From positions 1 through 44,092 of IMG/VR virus record IMGVR_UViG_3300006802_000173: DNA of 44,092 bases; one strand, written 5' to 3'. Position 1 is the first letter of the stretch. Each line of letters opens with the position of its first letter. The position numbers and the translations under genes were made by a program. Under the pieces are notes generated by a model. The model was not told where the DNA came from. It saw only the letters and a list, made by a program, of their open reading frames with translations, and searched no databases. Source of the stretch: a virus. Shown here one piece after another: positions 9,165 through 26,162 of this stretch.

Positions 9165-9177
9165 GGGATGGAATGGT

Positions 9178-9549: not shown

Positions 9550-9568
9550 GGATTTGATTGGTTGTGGA

Positions 9569-9676
9569 TTAGAGTTGTGAGCGGATGAAAAGGAAGAAGA
9601 AGGCGAAGCCAAGGATAAGGTTCGCCAAGATGAAAAAGGCGAGTTTTGCTAAGGTTTCGATGCGTTTTTTGTTCAC
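9569..9676 (-). CDS. Tiny single-span membrane protein (35 residues)
   Basis: From GTG 9676 the ORF encodes a basic start (VNKKRIETLAK) and then a long hydrophobic Phe/Leu-rich helix (LAFFILANLILGFAFFFLF). It ends RSQL. A single transmembrane segment with a positive N-terminus is clear. It is the first gene of the leftward transcript, facing the divergent small-terminase gene. A tiny membrane protein at the head of an early operon could act on the host envelope, for example in superinfection exclusion or as an antiholin; this is inference. A similar 33-residue membrane peptide is encoded at 39393-39494. Confidence 0.5.
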   Translation of the reverse strand: MNKKRIETLAKLAFFILANLILGFAFFFLFIRSQL

Positions 9677-9683
9677 GGGAGAG

Positions 9684-9712
9684 AGACTAGACCGGGCGGA
9701 AACGGAGCGCAA
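9684..9712 (-). promoter_or_regulatory. Candidate leftward sigma70-type promoter
   Basis: Read leftward, TTGCGC (9712-9707) and TAGTCT (9689-9684) are separated by exactly 17 bases and lie just upstream of the GTG at 9676. The match is 4/6 and 3/6 to the consensus, so this is only a candidate. Its location in the only divergent gap between the leftward operon and the rightward head genes supports it. Confidence 0.25.
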
Positions 9713-9819
9713 GTAGTTTTTTGAAGTTTTTTTCAGAGGGCAGGAAAGGGAAGGGAAAGCCTAGGCCGATCCGAAAGGTAAGACTTGCGTCACAAGGTAT
9801 CTTGCCTGACAAGGTACTC

Positions 9820-10269
9820 ATGGACGCTACGGAATGGGACAAGGCAAAAACATGGTACCTAGGGGGGATGCCTTGGAAGCAGATTTCAAAGGAGTTGAAC
9901 GTACCAGAGTCAACGCTAATGACCAGGGCAAGCCGCTCCGGCTTGACTAAGGTGAAGCGAGATATGGGTGACTTTTCTCTTAAAAAGAAAAGCGAACAAA
10001 TAGAACACTCTATTGAAACACTATCTAAACTAGTTAGAAGCAAACTAGCTAATGATGCCATCACAACACTAGAAAGAGTCGACAATTATCAAATCAGTGA
10101 CATACGCGAAGAAAACACAAGGGAGCAAGTGTTAGCGTCTATTAGCAAACGTTCCGCTCTCGTTTTCGGATGGTCTGACACAAGCGAAAACGCGACTGTA
10201 TCGATTAATCTGTTGGGAGCATTGCCGGATAAAACATTAAACATAACGCCAAGTAATGAAATAGAATAG
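9820..10269 (+). CDS. Probable terminase small subunit (HTH)
   Basis: From ATG 9820 (AAGG five bases upstream) the 149-residue protein begins DATEWDKAKTWYLGG. A helix-turn-helix (WKQISKELNVPESTLMTRA) follows, and then a basic GLTKVKRD and a long central helix (SIETLSKLVRSKLANDAI). It ends with a beta-rich tail (VSINLLGALPDKTL). This order is that of phage small terminases, which bind the packaging site and load the large subunit. The frame is open to a TTG at 9721, which would add a basic 33-residue extension. It is separated from the large terminase by 15 kb and lies on the other strand, which is unusual. A generic HTH regulator is the alternative. Confidence 0.6.
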   Translation: MDATEWDKAKTWYLGGMPWKQISKELNVPESTLMTRASRSGLTKVKRDMGDFSLKKKSEQIEHSIETLSKLVRSKLANDAITTLERVDNYQISDIREENTREQVLASISKRSALVFGWSDTSENATVSINLLGALPDKTLNITPSNEIE

Positions 10270-10335
10270 GGTAATGGGATAGGAAAAGGATTGTTATTCT
10301 ATGGGATAAGTAGAGTTTCAACTGGGCCTGGGCGG

Positions 10336-10386
10336 TCCCCTTTTGGGGTGGGCTTCGTTTACGATACCCCCCCTCAAAAATTTTTG
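10336..10386. other. Palindromes in the gap before the nuclease gene
   Basis: The 130-base gap 10270-10399 contains CCCC-TTTT-GGGG (10337-10348), a run of seven C, and the perfect 12-base palindrome CAAAAATTTTTG (10375-10386), which ends 13 bases before the nuclease ATG. The first could be a weak terminator stem for the upstream gene. The second looks more like a binding site for a dimeric protein. Neither can be assigned further. Confidence 0.3.
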
Positions 10387-10399
10387 GCACTTTTGACAC

Positions 10400-10906
10400 A
10401 TGATTAAAATTGGAAATAGTGTAAAATTAAACATATCCGAGCAACGATTGGCTGAGTATGTGGCGAAGCGGCGTAGCGAGTGGAACGACCAACTAGGAGT
10501 TCCGAATGTTGTGATTAGTTCGTTGGGTCAGCGTGGAATTGATCTTGAGGGCATAGCAGGGGAATTGGCCTTCTGTAGATTATTCAATGTGTATCCAGAT
10601 TTGGAGACGGATGTGGAGCCGCCGTACAAGGCTTATGACTGTGTGTTGTATGATCGCTTGAGAGTGGATGTGAAGAGTACGACGTATGAGCATGGTCGGT
10701 TGTTGGTGAGTCAAAAGACGGGCGAGAAAGCTGGTGAAGTGGATGCGTATGCGTTGATGACGGGAACATTTCCAGGTCCATATGTTTATCGCGGCATGAT
10801 TGATCGACATGAACTGATTCGGGAGAAGCGGATAGGCGAGATTTATGGGAATCGGTCGTACATGGCGTGGCAGAACGAGCTTGTGGACATGGTATTTTTG
10901 TATTGA
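10400..10906 (+). CDS. PD-(D/E)XK family nuclease
   Basis: The 168-residue protein has the sparse motif set of this nuclease fold: Glu in GIAGELAFC (E55), Asp in the strand YDCVLYD (D80), and the D-x-K core RVDVKS (D90, K92), followed by a strand LLVSQ. Later sequence (DAYALMTG, VYRGMIDRHEL) fits the remaining beta-alpha part. It could be a holding or resolving endonuclease, or help packaging, since it sits between the probable small terminase and the capsid gene. The leader is A/T-rich with no Shine-Dalgarno. Fold assignment is fairly secure; the substrate is unknown. Confidence 0.7.
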   Translation: MIKIGNSVKLNISEQRLAEYVAKRRSEWNDQLGVPNVVISSLGQRGIDLEGIAGELAFCRLFNVYPDLETDVEPPYKAYDCVLYDRLRVDVKSTTYEHGRLLVSQKTGEKAGEVDAYALMTGTFPGPYVYRGMIDRHELIREKRIGEIYGNRSYMAWQNELVDMVFLY

Positions 10907-10960
10907 CGCGAGCGGGCCAGTAATCGCTGTATTCGCGCAATCGGACCTAAAACGAGATGC

Positions 10961-10981
10961 TGGCTGATTGGTCGTCAGCCA
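10961..10981 (+). promoter_or_regulatory. Hairpin in the capsid gene leader
   Basis: TGGCTGA (10961-10967) and TCAGCCA (10975-10981) form a perfect stem with a seven-base loop. It lies in the 182-base untranslated stretch between the nuclease stop and the capsid start. No U-run follows. It may stabilise or process the highly expressed capsid message. The rest of the gap shows the direct repeat GTCGGTATAAC/GTCGGTTAAT (11059-11077) but no Shine-Dalgarno before the ATG at 11089. Confidence 0.35.
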
Positions 10982-11088
10982 CAAACTGTCTAAGCGGAAG
11001 TGACGCCCGCGCTGCGGAATTGTCCTCAATGTGGGGATAGTGGCCCGCTTCTACAAAGTCGGTATAACGTCGGTTAATTTTCTGAAAT

Positions 11089-12327
11089 ATGTCTTGTCCT
11101 AATGTCTTTAACGCCTTCGCTGTGGCGACCGAGTCGCTCGCGCAGGATGTGTACAAGCGGGCTTCGTACCGCTCGATGTGGCTCAACTTGATTGAGCGTG
11201 GCGAGTATCCGCAGGGTACTGGTTTGACGCAGACTTCGTTCAACACCACTTCGATTGAGCCGACTGCGGCTGAGGAGTGGAGCGCGATCACGCTTGCTAC
11301 TGGCGAGAATGGTGGTGCTTGCGATGTGACCTATGCGGATGTGCCTGTGGGTTACAACGCGGTGACTTGGTCCCCGGAGCGTTTCGCGCTCAAGGGTCCG
11401 TTGCTGTGTAAGGATGATCTGACCTTTGATCATCGTGTTGAGGCGTTCCTCCGTGTGTATCTTGAGAAGCTCTCGATCCGCGCCCAGCGTAGCTGGGAGA
11501 CTCGCTATCAGAACACGTTCGCGAAGTTCGCGATCAAGGCCGTGGCTGACTCGTCCTTTACGCAGGTGGAGACGATTCCGTCTGGTGTGAACGAGTTCCC
11601 CTGGATTCAGACTGGCTCCGCTGGTCAGGCTTTGAATCAGGCGACGAGCGAGTTGACCCAGGAGATGCTGGATGTGACTGCTGCTACGTTGATTCGTAAC
11701 GGCGCGACCAATCCTGATTCGAGTGGCTTCATCAGCTATTCGAGCGATGGTCCGGTGTTCCCGTTGTACATCGGTCTGGAGGCTTCGCAGCGTATCGCGC
11801 AGAACAATCCTCAGTTCCGCGATGATCTGCGCTATGCGGATATGGGCAGTGGTACGGGTGCCGAACTCTTGAAGCGCATTGGTGCGAACCGTGTGATCAA
11901 GAACTTCCGCCATGTGCCGAATCTGTTCCCGCCCCGGTTCACCTATGCTGGCGGCAAATACACGCTGGTTCAGCCGTTCACCAGTTCGTCTGGCACGAAG
12001 GGTACTGTGTTCAGCGTGAATCCGTCGTGGGTGTCTGCTCCGTACGAGGCCGCGTTCGTCGTGACTCCGTATGTGTTCAAGAGCCACATCGTTCGCCCCG
12101 TGAACCGCGTTGGCGATCTGTCGTGGATGCCGACCAACTACATGGGCGAGTGGCAGTGGGTGACTGGTGCCTACAAGCTCAACGTGGATTGCGCTGATCC
12201 GCTTGAGAAGAAGGGCCAGCATTACGCTGAGTTCATCCATGCCGCCGAGCCAATATTCACCAATCAGGGCATGACGATCATCTTCCGCCGCTGCACTGGT
12301 GCGTTGACGACTATCATCTGCTCGTAA
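11089..12327 (+). CDS. Major capsid protein
   Basis: The 412-residue protein has no signal peptide and a mixed alpha/beta composition. A helical N-terminal region (FAVATESLAQDVYKRASYRS) and a long hydrophilic loop are followed by alternating strands and helices typical of an HK97-like shell protein. Segments include EAFLRVYLEKLSIRAQRSWE, PVFPLYIGLEASQRI, VIKNFRHVPNLFPPRFTY and a C-terminal Cys-containing sheet (MTIIFRRCTGALTTIICS). Codon use is even and there is a strong hairpin terminator right after the gene, as expected for the most abundant product. The fold is inferred from size, context and pattern; no short motif is diagnostic. The scaffold gene, which normally precedes it, is on the opposite strand at 16354-17550. 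Confidence 0.8.
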   Translation: MSCPNVFNAFAVATESLAQDVYKRASYRSMWLNLIERGEYPQGTGLTQTSFNTTSIEPTAAEEWSAITLATGENGGACDVTYADVPVGYNAVTWSPERFALKGPLLCKDDLTFDHRVEAFLRVYLEKLSIRAQRSWETRYQNTFAKFAIKAVADSSFTQVETIPSGVNEFPWIQTGSAGQALNQATSELTQEMLDVTAATLIRNGATNPDSSGFISYSSDGPVFPLYIGLEASQRIAQNNPQFRDDLRYADMGSGTGAELLKRIGANRVIKNFRHVPNLFPPRFTYAGGKYTLVQPFTSSSGTKGTVFSVNPSWVSAPYEAAFVVTPYVFKSHIVRPVNRVGDLSWMPTNYMGEWQWVTGAYKLNVDCADPLEKKGQHYAEFIHAAEPIFTNQGMTIIFRRCTGALTTIICS

Positions 12328-12347
12328 TCGAGATCCGATAGCGATTG

Positions 12348-12385
12348 TGCCGTGGGGAGAGAAATCCTCACGGCATTTTTGTTTT
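12348..12385 (+). terminator. Rho-independent terminator after the capsid gene
   Basis: TGCCGTGGGGA (12348-12358) pairs with TCCTCACGGCA (12365-12375) over eleven positions with one G-T wobble and a six-base loop. TTTTTGTTTT follows directly. This is a textbook intrinsic terminator 20 bases after the capsid stop codon. Confidence 0.85.
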
Positions 12386-12449
12386 GACGGATGATGGATA
12401 GTTGGCCAACTTGCCAGCGGGTATTCTGAATAGGTTGACTCATTGGGAA

Positions 12450-12508
12450 GCGGTAGAACACCGCGAACCCTCGATTGGATGATAGAAACATCTGGTCGAG
12501 GGTTTTTC
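12450..12508 (+). terminator. Second hairpin/terminator before the small head gene
   Basis: GCGGT-AGAAC-ACCGC (12450-12464) is followed by a larger stem, AACCCTCGA (12466-12474) with TCGAGGGTT (12496-12504). Inside this, GGATG and CATCT also pair. TTTTC closes it. It could be a back-up terminator, or, with TTGACA at 12510-12515 just after, mark the start of a separate transcript. The frame that would start at 12443 crosses this structure and is probably not translated. Confidence 0.65.
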
Positions 12509-12544
12509 GTTGACATTTATGATGGTCGCTTGAGTGTCTTTGAT

Positions 12545-12835
12545 ATGCCGAAGTTCATGCTACCGGAGGGTGTTGAGATTCCTGAGAATCTGGCTGAGGG
12601 CGAAGCGTTTCAGACGATGGCCACGATTGTTCTTGGCAAGGGTGGCAAGGCTGAACTGATCGAGGTGGATGGTGTGGCCATCCCTGGATATGAGAAAGCC
12701 GCGAAGAACAAGAAGATGAAGGGCGGCGAGGAGGAGATGGAGGAGGAGGGTGAGATGGAATCTAAAGGTGGCGGTGGGCGCGAGAGTTTCATCGCTGAGG
12801 TGATGCGTCGTGGGCAGGGTCCGATGATGAGCTAA
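12545..12835 (+). CDS. Small acidic head-associated protein
   Basis: The start at ATG 12545 (MPKFMLPEGVEIPENLAEGE) is preferred over an in-frame ATG at 12443 that lies inside terminator hairpins. The 96-residue protein has a folded first half (FQTMATIVLGKGGKAELIEV). A Lys-rich turn and a Glu/Gly-rich low-complexity stretch (KGGEEEMEEEGEMES) follow, then a short helix (SFIAEVMRRG). Its place after the capsid gene suggests a minor head or assembly role. No family recognised. Confidence 0.6.
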   Translation: MPKFMLPEGVEIPENLAEGEAFQTMATIVLGKGGKAELIEVDGVAIPGYEKAAKNKKMKGGEEEMEEEGEMESKGGGGRESFIAEVMRRGQGPMMS

Positions 12836-12839
12836 TTTT

Positions 12840-13274
12840 ATGGCTGCGATTACTTGCGACGAAGCGGAGACGCTGATCAACGAGGCCGCGCCATTCGGGT
12901 GCCGGTCGCCGTGGGAAGTGGAGCTTGGAAAGCTCGCGCTTGAGAATCGTATCGCGAGCTATCTTCAGGGTGGCGGTGCTACCCGTGGAGCGTATCGGAC
13001 GGTGACGACGAGCGGGAATGTCATCAGCGGCGATTATCTGCTGATCTGTGATGCGACGGCTGGAGCCATTACGATGACGCTTCCTCCGGCGGCATTGGTC
13101 GCTGGCCGGATTTACGCTTTCAAGCGGATCAATAGCGGAGCGAATGCGGTGATCGTGGACGGCTATGCGGCGGAGACGATTGATGGTGCCGCGACCCACA
13201 CGCTGACTCCGCAGTGGAATAGTTTGACGATCATGTCGGACGGCACCGCTTGGTTTATTTTAGCTGACCATTGA
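12840..13274 (+). CDS. Structural protein with fibre-type beta module
   Basis: The 144-residue protein has two parts. Residues 1-42 (AITCDEAETLINEAAPFGCRSPWEVELG) form a Cys-containing helical module. Residues about 51-144 are strand-rich (YRTVTTSGNVISGDYLLICD, ITMTLPPAALVAGRIYAFKR, WNSLTIMSDGTAWFIL), like repeats seen in phage fibres and decoration proteins. The N-terminal module recurs in the next gene. It probably forms a small virion spike or decoration anchored by that module. It begins four bases after the preceding stop. Confidence 0.65.
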   Translation: MAAITCDEAETLINEAAPFGCRSPWEVELGKLALENRIASYLQGGGATRGAYRTVTTSGNVISGDYLLICDATAGAITMTLPPAALVAGRIYAFKRINSGANAVIVDGYAAETIDGAATHTLTPQWNSLTIMSDGTAWFILADH

Positions 13275-13275
13275 T

Positions 13276-13485
13276 ATGGCCAATATCTCCTGTACGGATG
13301 CTGCATCGCTGATAGCTGAAGCGTGGGGTGCTTCGTGCAAGAGTCCGCGTGAGCGCAATCTGTTGGAGATTGGCCTACTTTGGGAAGCTGCTACTTTGGG
13401 TGGTTCGGCGGATATCACGGCGGATAGCACGGTGGTAACTGCTGACAGCACCATCATCACGGCGGACATGACGGAATTCATTTAA
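13276..13485 (+). CDS. Small structural protein sharing an N-terminal module with its neighbour
   Basis: The 69-residue protein repeats the N-terminal module of the preceding product (ISCTDAASLIAEA, CKSPRERNLLEIGLLWEA). It then has three tandem TAD turns (DITADSTVVTADSTIITADM). The same TAD pattern is found at residues about 63-80 of the nozzle-like protein encoded at 27426-29282. It looks like a minimal anchor plus beta repeat. It starts one base after the previous stop, so the two are coupled. Confidence 0.6.
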   Translation: MANISCTDAASLIAEAWGASCKSPRERNLLEIGLLWEAATLGGSADITADSTVVTADSTIITADMTEFI

Positions 13486-13494
13486 CAAAAGATT

Positions 13495-14880
13495 ATGTCA
13501 CAGCAAACGATCAATGTCGGTGCGGCTCCGAATGACGGAACGGGAACGCCGTTGCGTACGGCTTTCCAGTACTGCAACTCGAACTTTAGCGAGTTGTACA
13601 CGGCTACTGGGCCTAGTGGTAACAACATCACTGTCCCCGGAAACGCCTCCATCACCGGCGACCTGACGGTTGATACCTCGACGCTGAAGGTTGATAGCGC
13701 GAATGATCGTGTGGGTGTTGGGACGGCAAGTCCGACATCTATTCTGCACGTTCAAAAATCGCAAGATGCTGAAACTACACTTGTCGTTAATAACACGAAC
13801 TCTGGAACTAATGTTGGAGCTAGGTTTGATCTTCAGTCTAATGCTGCCAACTATTTGACCCTTGAATCATACGGTCAAAATGCTTCTGGAACCATTTTCG
13901 GAATCAATAAAGCTAAGTTAAATGTTGTTTTTGAAAACGCGCTAACCGCTAATTCAAGCGGTCTTGCAATCGGAACTTTATCGACTAATCCGCTGTATCT
14001 TTGCACTAACAACACGCTGAGGGCCACCCTCGACTCCTCCGGCAACCTCGGTCTCGGAACCGCGCCGCAGGCTTGGGATGGTAATTTTAAGGCAATGGAA
14101 TTGGGATATCCTAATTTCATCGCTGGAAACGCTGGAGCATATCGTGTTGATGTCGGTGTAAATGGGTATTTTAGCGGTGCTGGATACAAGTATGCTGCTA
14201 CTGGTGTTGCCGCTTCGTACTACAGTCAGTCGTCTGGTGCGCATAGGTGGTACAACGCCGCCTCCGGCACCGCTGGCAATGCGATCACCTTCACCCAGGC
14301 GATGACGCTGGATGCGAGTGGGAATCTTTCTATTGGTGCAACTTCTGTTGCGAATCAGGAGCGGCTTAATCTGACCAGCAGCAGAAATGTGTATGTTGGA
14401 CGATTCTTTAATTCTGCGTCGTCTGGCGGAAACTATGGTTTCCTAATCAACTACAGTGCTGCTGCTCCTAACAATGCTTCAAACGAGTTTCTTGCTTGTT
14501 CTGACAACGCTGCTTCTAGGCTGTTCCTGTATTCCAACGGTGGAATTGCGAATTATCAGTCGAACGATTCCAACCTATCTGACGAGCGCACAAAGACCGA
14601 TATCAAGCCACTTGGTTCTTATTGGAACAAGATCAAGGCGTTGGAGGTTGTCACGTTCAAGTACAAGGACCAGACGCACAGCGACAACAACATCGGTTTG
14701 ATCGCTCAGCAGGTTGAAGCAGTCGCTCCTGAATTGGTCGATGTTGATGGATTTGGAAATACTCCTGCTGACGGTGTTCCTTTCAAGACCATCTACACCA
14801 CCGATCTCTACCACGGTGCAATCAAAGCCTTGCAGGAAGCAATGACCCGTATCGAAGCTCTGGAAGCCAAACTCGCCTAA
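13495..14880 (+). CDS. Tail fibre with C-terminal S74 chaperone peptidase
   Basis: The 461-residue fibre opens with TINVGAAPNDGTGTPLRTAF and a FSELYTATG segment, a common fibre N-terminus. Beta repeats follow (GNASITGDLTV, RVGVGTASPTSILHVQKS, ATLDSSGNLGLGT). The C-terminal 100 residues are an intramolecular chaperone of endosialidase: SDERTKTDIKPL at residue 362, VVTFKYKD, NIGLIAQQVEAVAPELV and YHGAIKALQEAMTRIEALEAKL. This domain trimerises the fibre and then cuts itself off, normally just before the Ser of SDERTK. It is likely a receptor-binding or side fibre. Its place beside capsid rather than tail genes is notable. Confidence 0.88.
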   Translation: MSQQTINVGAAPNDGTGTPLRTAFQYCNSNFSELYTATGPSGNNITVPGNASITGDLTVDTSTLKVDSANDRVGVGTASPTSILHVQKSQDAETTLVVNNTNSGTNVGARFDLQSNAANYLTLESYGQNASGTIFGINKAKLNVVFENALTANSSGLAIGTLSTNPLYLCTNNTLRATLDSSGNLGLGTAPQAWDGNFKAMELGYPNFIAGNAGAYRVDVGVNGYFSGAGYKYAATGVAASYYSQSSGAHRWYNAASGTAGNAITFTQAMTLDASGNLSIGATSVANQERLNLTSSRNVYVGRFFNSASSGGNYGFLINYSAAAPNNASNEFLACSDNAASRLFLYSNGGIANYQSNDSNLSDERTKTDIKPLGSYWNKIKALEVVTFKYKDQTHSDNNIGLIAQQVEAVAPELVDVDGFGNTPADGVPFKTIYTTDLYHGAIKALQEAMTRIEALEAKLA

Positions 14881-16353: not shown

Positions 16354-17550
16354 TCAGCGACCAAGCGATTTCATCACGTTGGCGATGAAATCCTGAGAGT
16401 TCGGATTCGCGCTGTTCGCGGAAGCGGGGCGCGAATTTCCTTTTGAGGAGGACGAGACTCCAGGTTCGGCACCGCGATACTTCGCCAGTTCAGATTGGAG
16501 CCGCTTGTTCACCTCGACCTGAGCATAGAGAAGCTCGCGATACTTCGGCGCAGCAGCGGCCCAAAGAGCAGCCTTGGCAAGGTCTTCCTCGCTGTTCTCG
16601 CCATTGAAAATCTGGCGGGCCAAGTCCATGCGCTGCGTGAGTTCGCTGTTCCACTCCTCGTCATTCTCGCGAGGCTCAAAAATCTCAAGGGCGCGAGCGT
16701 TCTCGGAAACCTTGCTCCAAGTCTTATTAGCCTCCTCTAGCGCGGCCTTCGTGTTCGTCGATTCATCCTGCTGATACTTGGAGATGATCGACTCGTAATC
16801 GCTCTTAGCTTCAGCGATCTCGGAAGCGCGTTCGCCCTGAATCTCCTCATGCTTGACGATCAATGCGCCCAGCTTGGCCTTCTTGGACGGCGAAAGCTGA
16901 TCGACGATGTCATCGATCTGGGAGTTCCGATAATCGCTCTCGGGAGCCTTCAAGAGCGATACGAGACGGTCGCCATCGCTGCCAACGAGTCCTTTGACCG
17001 ACTCGAACACATTGTTGATGCGACCCTCGTACTTCTTGACGAACTCAGGATGACGCTCGATGTCGAGCAATCGAAGACGCTCGGAAAGAGCTTCGCGCTC
17101 TTCGCTCAACGACTTGAGCTTGGTCTCGTAATCTTCGGAAGGATTCTTGGAAGACTTGATTTCCTCTAGCTGCTTGGCGAGTGCAGCCTTCTCTTCCTTG
17201 ATCTTTCGGAAGGCTTCAGCGGCTTTTGTACTCTTGATCGTCTCGGGGATGTCAGCGTCAACATCACCGGAAACATCTTCGGATTTAGCCGGTTTGGTGA
17301 ACATCAACTCGATGTCCTTCTCGGCGCGAGTCTTAGCGGTAGGCTTCTCAGCTTTCGGTTGAGTCTGCTTCTCCTGCTTCTGCTGAGGAGGAGGACTGGC
17401 CTTCTCCTTCTTCAGATCGGCTTCGGTCACCTGCTCGGCAACGCCTTCGTCGTTTGCGCCCATCTTATTGAACGCATCGAGAATCGAGTTCCCGAAATCA
17501 GGAGTTTCGCCGCCATTGACAATCGGACTGTTCAGTTGATCTCCATCCAT
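16354..17550 (-). CDS. Scaffold protein
   Basis: The 398-residue, highly charged protein lacks hydrophobic core segments. It has a disordered N-terminus (SPPPQQKQEKQTQPKAEKP), two long coiled-coil regions (about residues 110-165, KIKEEKAALAKQLEEIKS and LKSLSEEREALSERLRLL, and about 320-355), and a basic Ser/Asn-rich C-terminus ending SQDFIANVMKSLGR. This is the usual form of podovirus scaffolds, whose C-terminal helix binds the capsid protein. It is the last gene of the terminase-portal operon. The capsid gene it should serve is on the opposite strand, so the two come from converging transcripts. Confidence 0.78.
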   Translation of the reverse strand: MDGDQLNSPIVNGGETPDFGNSILDAFNKMGANDEGVAEQVTEADLKKEKASPPPQQKQEKQTQPKAEKPTAKTRAEKDIELMFTKPAKSEDVSGDVDADIPETIKSTKAAEAFRKIKEEKAALAKQLEEIKSSKNPSEDYETKLKSLSEEREALSERLRLLDIERHPEFVKKYEGRINNVFESVKGLVGSDGDRLVSLLKAPESDYRNSQIDDIVDQLSPSKKAKLGALIVKHEEIQGERASEIAEAKSDYESIISKYQQDESTNTKAALEEANKTWSKVSENARALEIFEPRENDEEWNSELTQRMDLARQIFNGENSEEDLAKAALWAAAAPKYRELLYAQVEVNKRLQSELAKYRGAEPGVSSSSKGNSRPASANSANPNSQDFIANVMKSLGR

Positions 17551-17562
17551 ATTTGTTATTGG

Positions 17563-17886
17563 TTAATACTGTTTTTCAAACGTCGCTTCAGGTTCGCTGA
17601 CAACTTGATTTGCTGCCAATTTGCGAAGGTTTTCAAGACAATGCGCGTAACCAGCGGTTACACCAGCGGCAAACACGATATCTGATTCCTTGGCGTTATG
17701 CCCAGGCATTGGGACCGGAATTGATTCGGACACAATCCGCAATGCCATGCGGACAATCGGGTTGGCCAACAGCTTCGCCAGTTCAGCTTGCTGACCGTCA
17801 GAGATCCATTGGGAGAGATTGATCTCCGGTAGGTTCATCAAGTCCTTCGGATCGCTCTTCGTTGAGCCTTTCAACCATTTGATCAT
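17563..17886 (-). CDS. Small hypothetical protein between glycan genes and scaffold
   Basis: The 107-residue protein has a short basic start, then a helical core (LAKLLANPIVRMALRIVSES, DIVFAAGVTAGYAHCLENLRKL). Its first 89 bases overlap the 3' end of the GH130-like gene, and its stop lies 12 bases before the scaffold start. Position suggests a head-assembly helper, but no family is recognised. A start at the internal ATG 17838 would shorten the overlap. Confidence 0.6.
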   Translation of the reverse strand: MIKWLKGSTKSDPKDLMNLPEINLSQWISDGQQAELAKLLANPIVRMALRIVSESIPVPMPGHNAKESDIVFAAGVTAGYAHCLENLRKLAANQVVSEPEATFEKQY

Positions 17887-19165
17887 GCTTAGTCTTTTTG
17901 TTTCGTTTCTTGTGTAACTTAGGAATCGGATCGATCACATCGCCAAAACGCGGAGGACGCTCCGCATTGACGACATCGCGCTTCGGTCGAATCACTTTCG
18001 TGATCTCAAGCAGGTCCGCATACGGAATACGGATGTAACCACAGTCCACATCGTTGATGCCATAGACGACTACCACTTGAGACTTATTAGAGTCGTAAAA
18101 GGCACCGCATGGGAACACGACAGCGGGTAATCCGGGCCACCAATCCTGCTGGTTCGTGCCAGTGAGGATCGGCATCGATGTCATGCGAACGATGCGGAAC
18201 GGAGCCTTCGCCTCGAAAGCATACGCGCCCATGTAATAGCGACGCTTGTTCGCGATCCAAGGGAGCGATGAGTGGAAGAAAGTCCAATACATTCCGTCGA
18301 TGAGGATCGGATTGGTGCCACCTCGAACTTCACCGAACTTGTAGAATGGATTGAACTCGTCCGTCTCGTATTCCTCCTCTTTCTCAAGACGCCCATTAAA
18401 GCGTATTACACGGTGCGGATTGGCCGAATACACCATGTGTGGCGCATTATCGTGGACGAACCATAGCCAGTTCTTCTCATGGCCATCGTTCACCATCGCC
18501 TGGGCGTTGTTGTTTCCGTGAAGCGGATCGAACCGAGCGACGTTCAGGAACTGCTTATCGAGCAGGAACATCGCCTGATGCGCGTAGCTCTTGAACGGGA
18601 TGAACGTGCAGCAGCTTAGTCCGTATTTGTCGCCAAATCGCACCACGCGAGGATCTTCAAACTGCTCATTCGGATAGTGCGATTGAAGCGTGAGAAGAGC
18701 CTTCTTGGTGGCCCGCAGATCACGGGAAAGCTCGAAGACAACGATGTCGTTCTTCTCCATGTAAACATCTTCATCTTTCTCGCGCTTGTTACGGCAGCGA
18801 CGGGCGAAAAATGTGATTCGTCCATCTGCTTCTTGGATGATGGCCGGGTTGAAGTAGTAGGTGCCTGTCTCTTGCGGCAGGACAATTTTGCCTACCTCCC
18901 AATCGACCTGATCCTTTAGTAGTGGGACATCGTTCTTTGCGTAGCTCATCAGGAATTCCGCTGCGAATTTGGTTTCGTCGTAGAGGGCCAGCCAGTGATC
19001 ACGCTCTTCGCGGATCTCGGTCAGGTGTTCCTCATGTTCTTTGGTTCTTATCTCCAGCGTCTTACGCAGGTCTTCGATCTGGAGCATAAGGTCCGCAGGA
19101 CCATCTCCTCCGTTTGCGAACCTGCGAAGTGCTTTGAGACTGATTTCACGGATGATATCTCTCAT
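17798..19165 (-). CDS. GH130-like beta-propeller glycan enzyme with N-terminal coiled coil
   Basis: The 455-residue protein has a coiled-coil N-terminus (about residues 26-62, LQIEDLRKTLEIRTKEHEEH). A five-bladed-propeller pattern like glycoside hydrolase/phosphorylase family 130 follows: YFNPAIIQ (104-111), FEDPRVVRFGDKYGLSCC (169-186) with the Asp of EDPR at the catalytic position, RGGTNPILIDGMYWTFFHSS (281-300), and VVVYGINDVDCGYIRI near the C-terminus. Family 130 enzymes act on mannosides by phosphorolysis or hydrolysis. The C-terminus is basic and disordered. It closes the glycan cluster and overlaps both neighbours. It may trim or transfer a sugar on a virion or host glycan. Activity is inferred only. 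Confidence 0.6.
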   Translation of the reverse strand: MRDIIREISLKALRRFANGGDGPADLMLQIEDLRKTLEIRTKEHEEHLTEIREERDHWLALYDETKFAAEFLMSYAKNDVPLLKDQVDWEVGKIVLPQETGTYYFNPAIIQEADGRITFFARRCRNKREKDEDVYMEKNDIVVFELSRDLRATKKALLTLQSHYPNEQFEDPRVVRFGDKYGLSCCTFIPFKSYAHQAMFLLDKQFLNVARFDPLHGNNNAQAMVNDGHEKNWLWFVHDNAPHMVYSANPHRVIRFNGRLEKEEEYETDEFNPFYKFGEVRGGTNPILIDGMYWTFFHSSLPWIANKRRYYMGAYAFEAKAPFRIVRMTSMPILTGTNQQDWWPGLPAVVFPCGAFYDSNKSQVVVVYGINDVDCGYIRIPYADLLEITKVIRPKRDVVNAERPPRFGDVIDPIPKLHKKRNKKTKHDQMVERLNEERSEGLDEPTGDQSLPMDL

Positions 19166-19785
19166 CGTTTTTTGTACACACGGGTTTTTCCGTTCTCAAG
19201 ATACGTCACATGATCATACTTAAACTTCGCCAACTCCTGAACGAGCTTCATGGTGTCCCAGTTTGCATCGTCCATGATGAAGTAACCGCCTGATTTGATG
19301 CAGGGAGTCCATGCAACCAGATCACGGCATGAATCCCATTCTGTATGCGCTCCATCCAAATGCAGGATATCAACGCGTCCGTTTGCGAACCTAGCGGACG
19401 CCTCAAGAGAAGTCTGGCGATAGACGGTTAGATTCTTATCGAGATCCAAGTTTTTGAAGTCGCGCAGAAACTTGCTGTAGATCGAGTCCAACTGCCACTG
19501 CTTCTCGCTAAGATTCTGGTTGTAACCATTCTCAGACATCGCGTCTTCGCTCCACGGATCAACCGCAAACACCGCGCACTGATGCGTGTAGGAAGCAGCA
19601 CAGAAGCTGGCCAAGCTCAAGCCTTTCCAAACGCCAACTTCTACGACGATGTTCGGCTTCTCTTGAAGAACTAAATCGTAGAGATAGCGGCTCTTTTCTT
19701 CATAGGTCCATCCCTCAAGATGCTCTCTTGCGGCAATTACTTTGTCCCAGTTATCAGGCATATGAGAATGTGCTTTGATCTCCAT
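19162..19785 (-). CDS. Class I SAM-dependent methyltransferase (type 24-like)
   Basis: From ATG 19785 the 207-residue protein has the AdoMet-binding loop IVVEVGVWKG (residues 46-55), the acidic strand end AVFAVDPWSED, the motif VDILHLDGAHTEWDSCRDL and GGYFIMDDANWD near the C-terminus. This order is typical of the Methyltransf_24 group that O-methylates sugars and related small groups. It overlaps the GT25 gene by 32 bases upstream and the GH130-like gene by ATGA downstream. Within this cluster it most likely methylates a sugar. The frame upstream of 19785 lies inside the GT25 gene and is not used. Confidence 0.8.
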   Translation of the reverse strand: MEIKAHSHMPDNWDKVIAAREHLEGWTYEEKSRYLYDLVLQEKPNIVVEVGVWKGLSLASFCAASYTHQCAVFAVDPWSEDAMSENGYNQNLSEKQWQLDSIYSKFLRDFKNLDLDKNLTVYRQTSLEASARFANGRVDILHLDGAHTEWDSCRDLVAWTPCIKSGGYFIMDDANWDTMKLVQELAKFKYDHVTYLENGKTRVYKKR

Positions 19786-20389
19786 TTTGAACCGCCAAAG
19801 GTGGAAACAGGCAGTAATGAACCATAGTCGGGAGACTCTTCTTCTGGAGTTGAATGTCGATTGGCGCGTACATCCGCTCGTTCGTTTCAATCAAGTGTCT
19901 AAGTGATGATTTCTTGATCAGATAAGCGTGGGTACAGAGTGGCGCGATTCCAGAGTATATGATTCCTGGTCGAACTTCCGTGTAATCCTTGCGAAGGCAG
20001 CAGTGGCCAACAAAGACAAACTCCCAGTCTTCAGGAAGGCGTGACATCATCTCGGTCAGTTTTTCCTTGAAACCGTCACAAAGCTGAACGTCATCTTCGA
20101 CGATCAGGAAATAGTCGTCTGGCAGGTACTCGGCAATCCTCCAGATCACATAATGTGAAAGAGAACACCCAAGAACTGGTTGGCTAATCTTGTACGGAGG
20201 GCCGTCCTCTGGAAGCCAGTTTGGCTTATCGTCAAGATAAGCCAATTTGGTTTTCAAACCCATCTTTGATGCATGAATCGCATCGAATAGATGGAACTCG
20301 ATACCGTGATCTCGCAGGTGTTTTGCGACCTTTTCGCGTCGGTCAGCAGCAGCTTTCAGTGAAACACAGAATGTAGTGGGAAATTTCAT
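19754..20389 (-). CDS. Glycosyltransferase family 25-like protein
   Basis: The 211-residue protein has the family 25 layout: the N-terminal strand FCVSLKAAADRREKV, LGCSLSHYVIW (73-83), the metal/nucleotide-binding acidic motif FLIVEDDVQL (94-103) and a later HAYLIKKSSLRHL. Family 25 enzymes often add galactose in lipopolysaccharide or glycoprotein synthesis. It is ATGA-coupled to the methyltransferase upstream. There is no membrane segment, so it acts in the cytoplasm. Substrate unknown; a virion protein or an O-antigen precursor are both possible. Confidence 0.85.
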   Translation of the reverse strand: MKFPTTFCVSLKAAADRREKVAKHLRDHGIEFHLFDAIHASKMGLKTKLAYLDDKPNWLPEDGPPYKISQPVLGCSLSHYVIWRIAEYLPDDYFLIVEDDVQLCDGFKEKLTEMMSRLPEDWEFVFVGHCCLRKDYTEVRPGIIYSGIAPLCTHAYLIKKSSLRHLIETNERMYAPIDIQLQKKSLPTMVHYCLFPPLAVQNGDQSTFSYA

Positions 20390-20946
20390 CCAATCAGAAT
20401 TGCAGACTTATTGAATCCACCGATATTGAACATTTGAACTAGCTTCGATTTTGGCCAGTAAATTGCGTTAAACGGACGATAACCACCGGGATTAATGTCT
20501 TGGTTTGAATCGCAGTGATCGTTGACTATCAGGACTTTTTTATGCTTGGTCGCGGCATAAAGAATCCTGTCGCAATCCGCATTTGGAAGATGTTGAAGAA
20601 CATCTTTGATGTGAACGAAATCAAAGATTTCTTTGACAGATTCAATCCCGTTTACCGATATGTCTGTTCCAATCGGTGCGCGAGCTTTAGCAAGTTCAAC
20701 GGCTTTTTCGCTGGCATCGATACCTTTGTATTTGATTCCGACCAAATCTAGCTGACTGGTGAGTTGCCAATCGCCACAACCAACGTCGAGAAACGACGTT
20801 GCGCCAAGTGATCGGATCAAATTGTTGAGAAATCCAACGTACTCAACCGTGTTTGATTTGAATGATCCTGGGCCAGATCCGCCGTTCCACTTATCTTTGA
20901 TGTAGATGTCATCAAAGATATTTTGAAGCGTGTTCGCAGTAGACAT
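20386..20946 (-). CDS. Class I SAM-dependent methyltransferase
   Basis: The 186-residue protein carries the canonical AdoMet loop SFLDVGCGDW (51-60), the acidic residue after strand two in YKGIDASEKAVELAK (73-87), and the motif FDFVHIKDVLQHLPNAD, closely resembling small-molecule methyltransferases. It overlaps the upstream glycosyltransferase by 35 bases and the next one by ATGA. With its neighbours it probably decorates a glycan. The C-terminal substrate cap is short. Confidence 0.85.
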   Translation of the reverse strand: MSTANTLQNIFDDIYIKDKWNGGSGPGSFKSNTVEYVGFLNNLIRSLGATSFLDVGCGDWQLTSQLDLVGIKYKGIDASEKAVELAKARAPIGTDISVNGIESVKEIFDFVHIKDVLQHLPNADCDRILYAATKHKKVLIVNDHCDSNQDINPGGYRPFNAIYWPKSKLVQMFNIGGFNKSAILIG

Positions 20947-21640
20947 CTTCTTTTTTGCTTATGATTTCGTCGGTCAACGAATTCATTTTCTCCGTATGGT
21001 ACGACCGCCATAAATGGGCGATCACGCAACCATCCAGAGACCTATTTTTTTGCCAATATTCGCCAGACTCGCAGTGAATGAAACCGAGCATCTCGAAATC
21101 GACAGCCTTGCAAAGACCAGGATTCTCGCGATGCAACTGCCACGGATATTGAACTGAAATCTCGTTCCATCCGCGACCATCAAACTCCTGCCATTTCTGA
21201 AGCCATTTCCATTGAAATTGACCGTGCATACGCGAGTACATGATCGCGTTGCATAGGCCAATGGTTCCTTCTCCGCAGAATTCTCGACCGATCACCGCGT
21301 CGTGGTTCAGCCACTCTTCGGGATATGGTGCGACCGTGATCGTGTCCGTGTCGCAGTAAACGCCACCCATCGCATAGAGAACGGTGTGGCGGATTAGATC
21401 AGCGCGATGCTGATGCTGCGGTATTGTTTTTCCGTTCCATTGATGCGGATTCTGGATCGGCATGATCCGAACCGGAGTCGTCGCCTTCAGTTTTTCCCAA
21501 TGATAACCTTTCGGCTCTTCAGGACACCAAAGGTAAAGGTTCCAGTCAGGATTGTTTACATGAGCGGATCGAATGGCGATCCGGTCGCAGATATGAAAGC
21601 CGTCGTTGTGAAGTCCATGTACAAAATGGATGTTTTTCAT
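20912..21640 (-). CDS. Glycosyltransferase with DXD motif (GT32/capsular type)
   Basis: The 242-residue protein has the family 32-like core HRADLIRHTVLYAMGGVYCD followed by TDT, with the DXD metal site at residues 97-99. NLYLWCPEEP and AIMYSRMHGQF come before and after it. A C-terminal HLWRSYH resembles the conserved His-Trp-x-x-S-W end of such enzymes. These transfer a hexose from a nucleotide sugar. Its start overlaps the portal stop by ATGA, so it is translated with the portal. No membrane segment. Confidence 0.82.
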   Translation of the reverse strand: MKNIHFVHGLHNDGFHICDRIAIRSAHVNNPDWNLYLWCPEEPKGYHWEKLKATTPVRIMPIQNPHQWNGKTIPQHQHRADLIRHTVLYAMGGVYCDTDTITVAPYPEEWLNHDAVIGREFCGEGTIGLCNAIMYSRMHGQFQWKWLQKWQEFDGRGWNEISVQYPWQLHRENPGLCKAVDFEMLGFIHCESGEYWQKNRSLDGCVIAHLWRSYHTEKMNSLTDEIISKKEDVYCEHASKYL

Positions 21641-23886
21641 CCCTGACGCGATAATTGAGCCTGAGCAGTTGCGTTCGCCCGCTGAATATCAGCGGTTGTC
21701 TTCGCGTTTCGACGGGCCAGATCAGCCTGAGTCTTGACGTTCTGACGCTGGATATTTGCCATCGTCTCGGCGTTCTGGCGAGCGATTTTTGACTGAACTT
21801 CGGCGTTTAAGACAGCAGTCTTCGGGTCAACACCCTGCTGGATCGCCATCGCTTGCTGCTGCTGCGCCATCGCCTGAGCTTGCTCGCTCACGAACTCACC
21901 AAGCTGCTGGATCGTCTGGTTCAACAACTCAAGCTGGCGAGTGTAGGCTTCAATCTGCGGACGGCGGGTCGGATCGAGCGACAGCCGCTGGAGATGCTCT
22001 TGAACGTGCTGGAGGATGCCTTGCAAGAAGAGCATGACTTCCTGCGGATTAGCACCCTGCTGGAGACTGCTCGCAGCTTCGTTCGCCGCGCCGAGATGCG
22101 TCTCGACATGGATGACATGGTTCTGCGTATCGGTGACGACAGCCATGTTGCCCTGGCGCAGCGATGAGTGTTCGAGAACGGCGAGTGCCGCTTGATCCTG
22201 AGCCTTCGAGTTGGGCATGGCGGACGGCAGATAGCGATCAACCATCTGCTGTCCAACCTGAGCAGCGATGTAGTCCTGCAACAGGTTGATCTTTCCACCT
22301 TCGGGCAAGGAGCCAAGCAGACCGAGCAGCGAGCCGAGAAGCTGCTGTTTCGCGAACTGCGATCCTTGGCCAACCGTCCTCGTCGCTTCCACGAAGTCCA
22401 AATCAAGCATGGCTTGATCAGGAACACCACGCTCACGACAACGACGCTGGAACTCAATCGCATCGCGATCACTCTTGGTGATCGGATTCAGATTCGGATT
22501 GGCGGCGCGACGGAATCGCTCCTCAAAGAAAGCATCAAGCTGATTGTAATACCGGCTTAACTGCGTCTTACCAATCGCGCTTTGCTGCGAGACAATCGCT
22601 TGGATTTCGGTTGCCGTGCGCGGGTTACCGGATGGTTTGTTAAGGCTCTGACGGTACTGCGAAAGATTTCCTTGGAGGACGTTTTCAAGGTCCGCGTTGA
22701 CGGCCATAGGCGCGTCCAGAACGCCCGCAACATTCTGCTGAATGACATCATAATCAGGAGGAATAATGGCGTACGGACCCTGCTGAACGACACTCGTCTT
22801 ATTCAGCGCATTCGGATTGAGCGGCTTGAAAAGAATCTGCGTACGAGCGAACGCTCCATCAACCATCGCGCAGCGCAGACGATTCTTCAGTTCCATCGCC
22901 TGAAGCATCTTGATGCCAAGACCCTTCACACCGTGATGCTCACCATCACCACGGTCGTAATACATCGGATGAATCACCTGCTCCCACTTGGAGAACCGGC
23001 GCAGTTTCCGATACATGAAATCACCGCTATCACGCTCGTCGATGATGCAGTGGCTGATCATCCCATCGAATTCCTTGTAGAATACATGGGACATCAGCAC
23101 GACTTCCGAACGAGCAGAGAACGTGATGTCGTTCGAGCGAAGCTGGCGTTGGAAGAACTCCCAATCGTACTGAACTCCGGAACGGTACGGTTCGGGCATC
23201 GCCACGCGGATGCGCTCGCGGACGTAATCGACATTCCAACCGGCAGCTTTAGCCGCTTCCTCGTCCTGAATTTTCTCGAACAAATCGTCCACGCCCATGC
23301 GGACACGGACGACGGCCACCTTCCAATCGCTGACATTGGACTTGGTGCCGTCAGGAACGAGCAGATCGGTCGCCAGGATCGCTTTGCAACGCCAGTTGTT
23401 GGCATCCTCGAAGATGAGAGGACCGTGGCCCACTAGGACCATCTCACGCTGCGAAAGCTGCATGAGGTAATCGAAGTCCTTGTCCAGCTTCTGGAGACGG
23501 TCGAACTCCTCGGTGATGATCTTAGACCAGTCCTCGCGCTTATCGATGTCGTTGCCGTAAGCAGTCTTGATGGTCGCGTAGGTCGGAACCTCGGCGAACA
23601 CATCGTAGAAAGCGGACATCGCGAGCGTTAGGAACGCTTCGGATTCGCGGAAATTTACGTTTGTACGGAACGCCTGATTATTCCTACGAAGTTCCGCAGG
23701 ATTGTAAGGAGGGTTTCCGTCAACGAGTCCACGGAGCTTCGCTCGCGTGTTATTCCGCAACTCATCTGCCATGATGAGTTTCTGGAAGATTTCACGGGCG
23801 GATGCCGCATCCGCGATGCGCGTATCGGGCGCAGTCCCGTTCTCGTTGAGACTCTTAAGCGGAAGTTGGGCTATTGATCCGTACAT
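21637..23886 (-). CDS. Portal protein (P22-like)
   Basis: The 749-residue protein has the typical podovirus portal order. A helical N-terminal region (FQKLIMADELRNNTRAKLRG), the clip/wing strands (GPLIFEDANNWRCKAIL, DLLVPDGTKSNVSDW), the stem and crown, and GNLSQYRQSLNKPSGNPRTA with ATEIQAIVSQQSAIG come first. A long C-terminal helix then carries near-heptad repeats (KIARQNAETMANIQRQNV, KTTADIQRANATAQAQL), which in P22 builds the barrel inside the head. It forms the dodecamer through which DNA is packaged and ejected. It overlaps the Cys-rich gene upstream by 16 bases and the glycosyltransferase by four. Confidence 0.88.
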   Translation of the reverse strand: MYGSIAQLPLKSLNENGTAPDTRIADAASAREIFQKLIMADELRNNTRAKLRGLVDGNPPYNPAELRRNNQAFRTNVNFRESEAFLTLAMSAFYDVFAEVPTYATIKTAYGNDIDKREDWSKIITEEFDRLQKLDKDFDYLMQLSQREMVLVGHGPLIFEDANNWRCKAILATDLLVPDGTKSNVSDWKVAVVRVRMGVDDLFEKIQDEEAAKAAGWNVDYVRERIRVAMPEPYRSGVQYDWEFFQRQLRSNDITFSARSEVVLMSHVFYKEFDGMISHCIIDERDSGDFMYRKLRRFSKWEQVIHPMYYDRGDGEHHGVKGLGIKMLQAMELKNRLRCAMVDGAFARTQILFKPLNPNALNKTSVVQQGPYAIIPPDYDVIQQNVAGVLDAPMAVNADLENVLQGNLSQYRQSLNKPSGNPRTATEIQAIVSQQSAIGKTQLSRYYNQLDAFFEERFRRAANPNLNPITKSDRDAIEFQRRCRERGVPDQAMLDLDFVEATRTVGQGSQFAKQQLLGSLLGLLGSLPEGGKINLLQDYIAAQVGQQMVDRYLPSAMPNSKAQDQAALAVLEHSSLRQGNMAVVTDTQNHVIHVETHLGAANEAASSLQQGANPQEVMLFLQGILQHVQEHLQRLSLDPTRRPQIEAYTRQLELLNQTIQQLGEFVSEQAQAMAQQQQAMAIQQGVDPKTAVLNAEVQSKIARQNAETMANIQRQNVKTQADLARRNAKTTADIQRANATAQAQLSRQG

Positions 23887-24490: not shown

Positions 24491-25669
24491 TTAGATGTCG
24501 TGATAGATTGTATCAGCTTCGCTTACAAGTTTCTCCCAGAGCTTGTCCGCTTTGGTGTGGCGCGGTTCAAACTGTACGGTTTTCCGTACAAGATCGAGCA
24601 GAACGACGGCGGCATCCGCCAAGTCGGGTGATCGTCCCGTGCGCTGCTTCATCACGGTCTTCGATTCAACGGATATCTTCCGCTTGGAATCATCGAACAT
24701 ACGGGCGCAAAACTCCTGCATCGTCTCGATATCGAGTCCACCAATCCGTTCCTCTACCACCCATTTACGCATCGAGAACCAGAGTTCTGTGACCTTTCTA
24801 TCATAGGCTTCGTTGCATGGCCGATTGTCCTCGTCGCTCACAGGTAATACCGATGGCGATCCGCCGAACTCTACGCGGTGAACAATTCCCCATTCTCTGG
24901 TGAGAATGTCGGCCAATCCACCGCCTTCACCGCTTGAATCGAGTGCGAATCGATCCGGTTGGATACCGCGCTTTACGCACTCCTCTTTAACCCGATTGGC
25001 AATCTGGTAATGGACTGGATCTGGCAATGCTGCATTGGGCGAAATCTGGATGATATCACCGAAAAGGATGCTCACTTTATCCGTGGCAGTACCAACTTTG
25101 GCAAAGCGTAGGACGCAACGATCACCGCCGAATCCTGGGTCGAGCGCAGCGACTTCCTGAGCGTTCGATGTAAAGATCAGCTTTTTGTTGGGCGAATGAG
25201 TCTCGACAAGTGCTTCCGAAAGCACCGTCTTGACCATGCCGTCCGGTGCCCAGAAACCGCGTGTGTACTTCCAGAAAGTCGGACTTTGCTCGCCCTCATG
25301 CCGCATGGCTGACAGCACCTGATCGTGGGTGATCAGATACGAATACTTCGTCCGACCCTCGCTGATGTTTGGACTCTTCATGCCGTCGAAACGGCAGCAA
25401 ATACCGCGTTCAGTCAGCCATGTCTGGTCCTCAATAGTGACGCTGCGCCACCCTTTGCCGGGGGTACAGAAGCGTCCGTGCGGATCGAACTTGGATGCAG
25501 GATTTCCGATTACCAGCATTTTGAACTCGCGACAGCCTTTGGATAGGTTTGTACACGCTTCAAACGCTGCCTCTGGGGTATCCGTCGCTTCGTCGATGAT
25601 CACCATCACCCGATCCGCGTGGATACCTTGGATGTTGGCCACTGCCTTCGATGTATTGCCTTCGGCCAC
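24491..25669 (-). CDS. Terminase large subunit, C-terminal part (Walker B and nuclease)
   Basis: This 392-residue frame contains the terminase Walker B motif VMVIIDEATD (21-30), the coupling motif LVIGNPAS (52-59) and the RNase H-type nuclease Asp residues: AALDPGFGGD (D177), FALDSSGEGG (D244) and PDLADAAVVL (D349, D352). It continues the product of 25695-26162 after a shift of frame within about 20 bases. The reading can open upstream of the first GTG (25669) to just after a TGA near 25716. It motors DNA into the head and cuts concatemers. As written it lacks the Walker A part, so it is only functional if the frames are joined. Confidence 0.85.
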   Translation of the reverse strand: MAEGNTSKAVANIQGIHADRVMVIIDEATDTPEAAFEACTNLSKGCREFKMLVIGNPASKFDPHGRFCTPGKGWRSVTIEDQTWLTERGICCRFDGMKSPNISEGRTKYSYLITHDQVLSAMRHEGEQSPTFWKYTRGFWAPDGMVKTVLSEALVETHSPNKKLIFTSNAQEVAALDPGFGGDRCVLRFAKVGTATDKVSILFGDIIQISPNAALPDPVHYQIANRVKEECVKRGIQPDRFALDSSGEGGGLADILTREWGIVHRVEFGGSPSVLPVSDEDNRPCNEAYDRKVTELWFSMRKWVVEERIGGLDIETMQEFCARMFDDSKRKISVESKTVMKQRTGRSPDLADAAVVLLDLVRKTVQFEPRHTKADKLWEKLVSEADTIYHDI

Positions 25670-25694
25670 CGCTACGGCGGATATCGAATGACGA

Positions 25695-26162
25695 TCATCC
25701 TTTGACAGCTTGGAGACTCATCTTTGAGTCCACCATGTTACCGGGGAATCCGCGTGTCTTGCGCGTAAGATCCTGAAGGTTGGCCCACATACGCTTGCGA
25801 ATCATCTTCGCCGTTGTGGATGTAAGGACTACCGCTGTCTTGGATGGGTTAGCCAGCCACCAAACGGTCGCGAAAAGAGTGGCTCCGAACGTCTTGCCGC
25901 TCGCGCCACATCCAGCCCAGCCAACGTAATCATGTTCGCAGAGGCTCTCGATCTGCTTTTCTAGCCACGGATTCCAACTGAGCTTTGGCCAGAGGATATC
26001 CGTTGCTTTGCGAAAATGTTCAAAAGTTCCTAAACCGCCCTCACTTGGGGACAAACGATTGCGAAAACAGTAAAGCTCAAGCTCCAGATCAGGTATTTTT
26101 ACAGGTGATTTGATGCCATACTTGTGTTGGATCAATGGATGCTCGGACACTTCGGAAGACAT
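25695..26162 (-). CDS. Terminase large subunit, N-terminal part (Walker A), ends in a frameshift
   Basis: The 155-residue frame carries the start of the packaging ATPase: an N-terminal helical region, then YVGWAGCGASGKTFGATL with Walker A at residues 84-91, then AVVLTSTTAKMIRKRMW. It stops at TGA 25695-25697 right after SLQAVKG. A one-base shift in the window between about 25695 and 25716 continues the protein as DDRHSISAVAVAEGNTS into the C-terminal frame. Assembly error, mutation or programmed +1 frameshifting are all possible. The start faces the fibre gene across a 54-base gap. Confidence 0.85.
   Translation of the reverse strand: MSSEVSEHPLIQHKYGIKSPVKIPDLELELYCFRNRLSPSEGGLGTFEHFRKATDILWPKLSWNPWLEKQIESLCEHDYVGWAGCGASGKTFGATLFATVWWLANPSKTAVVLTSTTAKMIRKRMWANLQDLTRKTRGFPGNMVDSKMSLQAVKG

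Follow-up and report, generated by a model that had tools for sequence, protein, structure and literature searches.

Few phage isolates are known to glycosylate their virions, and what the modification does in nature is unclear. The closest described arrangement to the one treated here is that of the cluster O mycobacteriophages, in which an O-methyltransferase and three glycosyltransferases are encoded between the portal and the capsid maturation protease (PMC4351075), the methyltransferase and glycosyltransferases of Corndog and JangDynasty lying downstream of the portal (PMC4351075; PMC5968724). A statement in a later paper, citing Freeman et al. 2023, has the cluster O enzymes modifying capsid and tail tube proteins (PMC11600133). 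The Gratiaviridae carry a kinase, an ATPase and a glycosyltransferase near the portal and major capsid protein (MCP) genes, which the relevant passages of that report interpret as modifying the host capsule or surface (PMC8008677). Here we describe a comparable locus in one IMG/VR virus record of 44,092 bases (IMGVR_UViG_3300006802_000173; this whole stretch is the window below), where glycosyltransferases, methyltransferases and a GH130-like protein are encoded between a predicted portal and a scaffold candidate. We read this locus, with moderate confidence, as a modular, exchangeable glycan-building cassette of the head operon whose product would most likely be placed on a virion protein.

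In the window and its relatives, as in cluster O, a methyltransferase and glycosyltransferases lie directly 3' of the portal in the head operon, a precedent (PMC4351075) that weakens the view, taken in a preliminary description of this DNA, that such a placement is unusual. The two systems differ in that the phages are unrelated and a protease, not a scaffold, follows the cluster O enzymes, whereas the window's relatives have about ten exchanged enzyme sets and a constant GH130-like protein, with a modification that is predicted from genes alone. A tblastn search of the INPHARED collection, which is without the Corndog record, returned no mycobacteriophage match to the window's GT32-like or GT25 glycosyltransferase, a result that speaks to close homology only; the GT25 protein matched Synechococcus, Burkholderia and uncultured phages only, and the GT32-like protein matched nothing there. 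The Gratiaviridae likewise have a glycosyltransferase adjoining the portal in a late operon, but it is accompanied by a HipA kinase and an ATPase, and no methyltransferase pairing is reported in the passages concerned (PMC8008677). As far as our searches go, a system of exchangeable modules built around a constant GH130/GT108-like protein is new, and the clade that carries it is undescribed.

The cassette and its neighbours

The genes of the locus, with our labels for the exchanged gene families (F), are as follows:

21637..23886, minus strand: predicted portal, 749 amino acids, named by position; upstream edge of the exchanged locus
20912..21640, minus strand: F4, DXD (GT32-like) glycosyltransferase, 242 amino acids; Pfam PF04488 Gly_transf_sug DXD, E=5e-12; DTDT motif
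20386..20946, minus strand: F5, class I S-adenosylmethionine (SAM) methyltransferase, 186 amino acids; PF13847/PF08241 (Methyltransf_31/11), E about 5e-8 to 1e-7
19754..20389, minus strand: F7, GT25-family glycosyltransferase, 211 amino acids; PF01755 Glyco_transf_25, E=1e-23
19162..19890, minus strand: F6, Methyltransf_24 O-methyltransferase-like protein, TTG start as listed; PF13578, E=7e-18
17798..19165, minus strand: GH130-like protein; PF04041 Glyco_hydro_130, E=1e-12; constant component of the cassette
17563..17886, minus strand: conserved 107-amino-acid open reading frame (ORF), function unassigned, between the GH130-like gene and the scaffold candidate
16354..17550, minus strand: scaffold candidate, 398 amino acids, acidic, helical; named by position
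11089..12327, plus strand: candidate MCP, 412 amino acids; candidate glycan acceptor

All five enzyme genes of the preliminary description are present on the minus strand between portal and scaffold, in the order it gave and each with Pfam support, and its account of linked sugar-building and methylating enzymes, co-directional with the head genes and translationally coupled to them, stands. By their coordinates the portal and F4 overlap by 4 bases (ATGA), F4 and F5 by 35, F5 and F7 by 4, F6 and the GH130-like gene by 4, and the latter and the 107-amino-acid ORF by 89. The overlap of F7 and F6 is 137 bases with the listed TTG (19890) and 32 bases with an in-frame ATG at 19785; the ATG is the likelier start, and with it the coordinates agree with the 4-base ATGA or 32–89-base overlaps, the first on the portal stop, that had been noted. 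The extent given for the cassette, 16354–21640, needs trimming, the five genes occupying 17798–21640 and the scaffold candidate 16354–17550, and the inventory missed the 107-amino-acid ORF. This ORF is 64–100% identical among relatives and constant in position between GH130 and scaffold.

The Pfam assignments point to sugar or small-molecule O-methyltransferases and to the GT25/GT32 families of lipopolysaccharide (LPS) type, not to DNA glucosyltransferases. Glucosyl- and methyltransferases that act on DNA do occur in phages, and a PHROG match of one cassette methyltransferase is labelled DNA methyltransferase; but the cassette lies in the late operon, and the window has a separate N6/N4 DNA methylase gene at 4548–5474. 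We thus give very little credence to the idea that these enzymes act on phage DNA or nucleotides rather than on protein.

Exchange of the variable genes among relatives

A relative of the portal is encoded in 157 IMG/VR stretches (about 150 portal-bearing contigs), while tblastn with the portal against 50,697 INPHARED phage records gave no match; the window is therefore a member of an uncultured clade. Two portal searches of the viral collection returned nothing beyond this clade and one outgroup, L226. Within the clade the portal is 84–100% conserved, and in L226 it is 70% identical. Upstream of the portal lie a terminase and then a 205-amino-acid gene, and relatives keep the order terminase, 205-amino-acid gene, portal, variable genes, GH130-like gene, 107-amino-acid ORF and scaffold candidate; L226, whose GH130-like protein is 47% identical, keeps portal-F1-F0-GH130-107aa-scaffold.

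All 80 distinct portal loci for which 3.8 kb or more of downstream sequence was available carry the GH130-like gene, in the same place each time. The 75 distinct portal-to-GH130 intervals, in contrast, contain nine gene families in ten architectures: the glycosyltransferase families F0, F3 and F7 (GT25-like), F4 (GT32-like) and F8 (GT2-like), and the methyltransferase families F1, F2, F5 and F6. The commonest architectures are F1-F0-F2-F3 (28), F4-F5-F1-F0 (15) and F4-F5-F7-F6 (10, the window's own), and others include F8-F2-F3 (8), F4-F7-F6 (5) and F1-F0 (4). What had been taken for a fixed five-gene pathway is thus a locus in which the GH130-like gene alone is constant and the four genes upstream represent one of some ten interchangeable sets.

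On a portal tree of 71 sequences at least 27 architecture changes are needed, as against a mean of 41.5 and a minimum of 35 when labels are shuffled; cassette type is therefore heritable yet exchanged fast. In one example, the records L041 and L091 share 99.7% identity over the 7.5 kb that end at the portal stop codon; from there their cassettes differ, and alignment resumes at the start of GH130. They form a natural, nearly isogenic pair, set apart in the region they share mainly by the cassette. In the remaining pairs whose cassettes differ, the breaks fall at these same points or at an inner module border. Identity on the right flank often differs from that on the left (92% and 99.7%, respectively, for L041/L091), as expected if exchange extended into the flank.

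Among 71 distinct cassette versions, every one has at least one glycosyltransferase and at least one methyltransferase, and 52 have two of each. Some pairs are nearly obligate: F1-F0 in 47/48 and F2-F3 in 36/36, with F4 accompanied by F5 in 26/31 and F7 and F6, usually paired, together in 14 loci. Junctions are likewise tight in every combination, the portal-F4 overlap being -4 in each of the 31 loci carrying F4, and overlaps of -4 recurring in F2-F3 (40/40) and F5-F7 (11/11), while the F5-F1 junction is kept in 15/15. Median dN/dS (the ratio of nonsynonymous to synonymous substitution rates) is 0.05–0.10 per cassette family, indicating strong purifying selection. No relatives of the cassette families were found elsewhere in the 12 near-complete genomes. 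Because the arrangement recurs in all relatives and the enzymes are under purifying selection, it is more than chance; and because the genes are co-directional and mostly translationally coupled with the portal and scaffold candidate, the enzymes should be made during head assembly.

These counts bear on the possibility that the genes are random cargo (morons) inserted by chance between portal and scaffold. Frequent exchange would fit such an origin, as would a lower G+C content, 0.44–0.49 at 19001–21000 against mostly 0.50–0.56 in the rest of the window. However, all 75 intervals hold variable genes (two to five) and none is empty; this, together with the constant presence of a glycosyltransferase and a methyltransferase, the conserved overlaps, the low dN/dS and the GH130-like gene in 80/80 loci, already contradicts the idea, which we regard as highly implausible. 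The earlier expectation that relatives would carry the genes in the same place, and not as cargo, is borne out.

The GH130-like propeller protein

The constant protein was modelled with AlphaFold2. Sixteen close relatives alone gave a mean predicted local distance difference test score (pLDDT) of 43.5; once two distant sequences were added to the alignment, a usable model resulted (mean pLDDT 71.6, predicted template modelling score 0.65), with an N-terminal helix or coiled coil (residues 2–79) followed by a five-bladed beta-propeller of GH130/GT108 type (90–391). Foldseek against the PDB ranks beta-1,2-mannoside phosphorylases at the top (5b0p, E=1.6e-12; 7fip and 9fj8, template modelling score ~0.70 by target, up to 0.71), and also matches Leishmania GT108 mannosyltransferases (6q4x; 6q4z, E=2e-9) and the mannoside synthase Uhgb_MS. 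GT108 mannosyltransferases are GH130-like propellers that build mannan from GDP-mannose or Man-1-P.

The motif E170-D171-P172-R173 (E-D-x-R) is invariant in the clade, in L226 and in the more distant phage L183 (below), and aligns with the catalytic E-D of 5b0p, so that the family 130 catalytic residue, on which the preliminary description had hung its GH130 assignment, is in place. In characterized GH130 enzymes, which include both hydrolases and phosphorylases, the invariant catalytic Asp is Asp142 of BT3780 and Asp131 of BF0772 (PMC4599007). GH130 phosphorylases have three basic residues that bind phosphate. The equivalent of the phosphate-site His is kept as H298, but in neither plausible alignment register does Arg or Lys fall at the HR(P/R) position in 5b0p/7fip. 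Since the basic phosphate-site residues other than H298 are not evident in the alignment, a plain phosphorylase seems doubtful. The likeness to GH130 beta-mannoside phosphorylases and hydrolases and to GT108 thus lies in the propeller fold and the aligned catalytic Glu-Asp, while the phage protein is only 11–18% identical to them, has an extra N-terminal helix, lacks clear phosphate-binding Arg/Lys in the alignment and is encoded in a glycan-building setting in a head operon, whereas the known enzymes are from catabolic or storage loci. Because of this setting we prefer a GT108- or synthase-type role: on the model, the protein would most likely build or finish a shared part of the glycan, probably with mannose. 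Propellers of GH130/GT108 type would thereby gain a place in phage head operons, with glycan building as their likely function.

GH130-like proteins in other genomes bear on this role. A 73.6-kb fragment of a large phage unrelated to the clade (L183/L220, record G590) has many nucleotide-sugar genes and, in one operon at 8539–13856, encodes a GH130-like protein, F8, an MT24::GT25 fusion, a second GT25 and a GT32-like protein; its GH130-like protein is 40% identical to that of the window over 215 residues (E=2e-50) and its F8 is 62% identical. The fusion directly supports pairwise action of a methyltransferase and a GT25 of these kinds, and the GH130-like protein is linked by the operon to the same glycan pathway. 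In a bacterial homologue (L161, G059:C9; 29% identical) a GH130-like propeller is fused to a following polysaccharide pyruvyl transferase domain; it has the motifs EKNW, PH, HSS, PCG and YGIND in common with the phage protein and retains the catalytic Glu-Asp under an alternative alignment only. Viral fold matches include proteins annotated as LicD, fucosyltransferase and WcaK pyruvyl transferase, and giant viruses (pithoviruses, Indivirus, Solivirus, Satyrvirus) have the same propeller fold, with LicD, fucosyltransferase and pyruvyl transferase annotations among the matches; these differ from the clade in being large eukaryotic viruses for which no portal-linked cassette is described. By tblastn the window's GH130-like protein had one weak match in INPHARED, to a 5.6-kb phage record, and none among plasmids.

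The same protein might instead be a virion-associated enzyme that trims glycans of the host or of competitors, with the neighbouring glycosyltransferase and methyltransferase genes forming an exchangeable unit of their own. The protein's N-terminal helical segment is of a kind that might be found in an anchored virion enzyme, the GH130 family has its hydrolases and phosphorylases (PMC4599007), and the gene is constant while its neighbours change. Yet in L183 the GH130-like protein directly precedes the GT2-like, MT::GT25 fusion, GT25 and GT32 proteins, the viral fold matches include annotated glycan-building enzymes, and in the clade the gene lies before the scaffold candidate rather than among tail genes. 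We consider trimming of this kind quite improbable.

The likely acceptor and the flanking genes

Of the possible acceptors a virion protein is the most likely, given that the enzymes are soluble and late and are encoded next to portal and scaffold, and that cluster O has the same layout. For substrates, order of reactions and biological use we propose the following. Head-gene transcription and coupled translation would yield the enzymes when heads assemble; soluble GT32-like, GT25 and GT2-like enzymes would draw on host nucleotide sugars to transfer one or two sugars onto a cytoplasmic acceptor; partner methyltransferases would cap these sugars by O-methylation; and the GH130-like enzyme would supply the shared part of the glycan. 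Recombination among related phages would replace the variable part exactly from portal stop to GH130 start, and such module exchange could produce serotype-like glycan variants with an altered particle surface chemistry. Glycan decoration of virion proteins is the most likely outcome, in which case capsid or tail proteins would be expected to carry glycan and methyl mass, as in a cluster O-type system. The virion glycosylation system suggested in the preliminary description is plausible, although we infer it rather than observe it.

The main alternative is a late change of host surface glycans, which would shield dying cells and their debris from renewed adsorption by progeny or competitors (superinfection exclusion, seroconversion). 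Gtr-type seroconversion sets comprise a membrane flippase, GtrA, and a bactoprenol glycosyltransferase, GtrB. Family searches of the cassette found no GtrA- or GtrB-like families, and no membrane span is predicted in any cassette protein (maximum 19-residue Kyte-Doolittle value <=1.5); unlike Gtr-type sets, the cassette is thus without membrane proteins, a flippase or a polyprenyl-phosphate glycosyltransferase. The proteins scanned included no recognisable lysogeny function, and coupling is strictly to portal and scaffold, not to early genes. On the other side, GT25 is named after LPS-building enzymes, the swapping could follow host O-antigen types, the tail fibres being hypervariable as well, and the glycosyltransferase next to the Gratiaviridae portal and MCP is read in this way in the passages that treat it (PMC8008677). 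On balance we think a host-surface role unlikely.

Several points nevertheless weigh against decoration of the virion. The clade is uncultured, so that both the virion glycan and its acceptor are predicted from genes; the names portal, scaffold and MCP come from position; late expression is compatible with host-surface modification too; and the propeller could trim rather than build, as GH130 also holds hydrolases and phosphorylases. The tail fibre, internal virion proteins and early genes of these genomes are mosaic as well, and exchange alone therefore does not prove selection on glycans. The tail fibre and probable internal virion proteins (13495–14880 and 31863–36377, plus strand) are hypervariable; at a 70% identity threshold 37 of the 47 fibres remain singletons, too variable a set for reading any linkage between cassette type and fibre type.

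With these points in mind, a further step from glycan building on the virion, to which we give a little less than an even chance, is that the clade as a whole switches the serotype of its own particle by plugging glycosyltransferase-methyltransferase pairs between the portal and a constant GH130/GT108-type enzyme. If so, phages with near-identical capsids and portals would bear different methylated glycans, a phage counterpart of bacterial O-antigen loci. Every clade member examined keeps a cassette of this kind, yet its predicted chemistry is swapped at gene-boundary precision among otherwise almost identical phages. This pattern suggests diversifying exchange acting on glycan diversity, be it that of the particle or of the host.

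The names of the flanking head genes derive from gene order and protein character, since no family match identifies portal or MCP: neither had a match in Pfam, PHROG, NCBIfam or PDB sequences, and the scaffold candidate gave only sub-threshold coiled-coil matches in family searches. The portal and scaffold labels first proposed therefore fit by order and character and find no family-level identification. The scaffold candidate follows the 107-amino-acid ORF at every locus. The candidate MCP is the most conserved protein of the clade, with 91–95% identity in the 12 near-complete genomes and 85% in L226.

Two records extend the picture of the clade. A contig in a metagenome-assembled genome (MAG) of an uncultured member of the Nitrosomonadales (L159, CAITJF010000097.1) is a clade fragment with the GH130-like gene, the 107-amino-acid ORF and the scaffold, whereas the clade portal was not found in that MAG; this is a weak hint at a betaproteobacterial host, too little for a host call. 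In L037 (IMGVR_UViG_3300021962_000056; 92,531 bases, twice the usual genome length) a clade member occupies one end.

Elsewhere in the window, the large terminase (24491–26162, minus strand) appears as two frames, while the near-identical L002 and all relatives examined have one open frame; the start-to-start distance is 495 bases in intact copies and 493 in the window, and the split is probably a frameshift or assembly error. The DNA methylase gene at 4548–5474 (minus strand) has no match in the 12 near-complete relatives. Two genes 3' of the candidate MCP (12840–13274 and 13276–13485, plus strand) occur in two allelic forms, ~80% or ~50% identical to the window, which do not follow cassette type. 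Finally, the proteins of 13276–13485 and 27426–29282 (plus strand) contain short repeats, for example ITADSTVVTADSTIITAD and LTITADNAIVTADAINVTAD.

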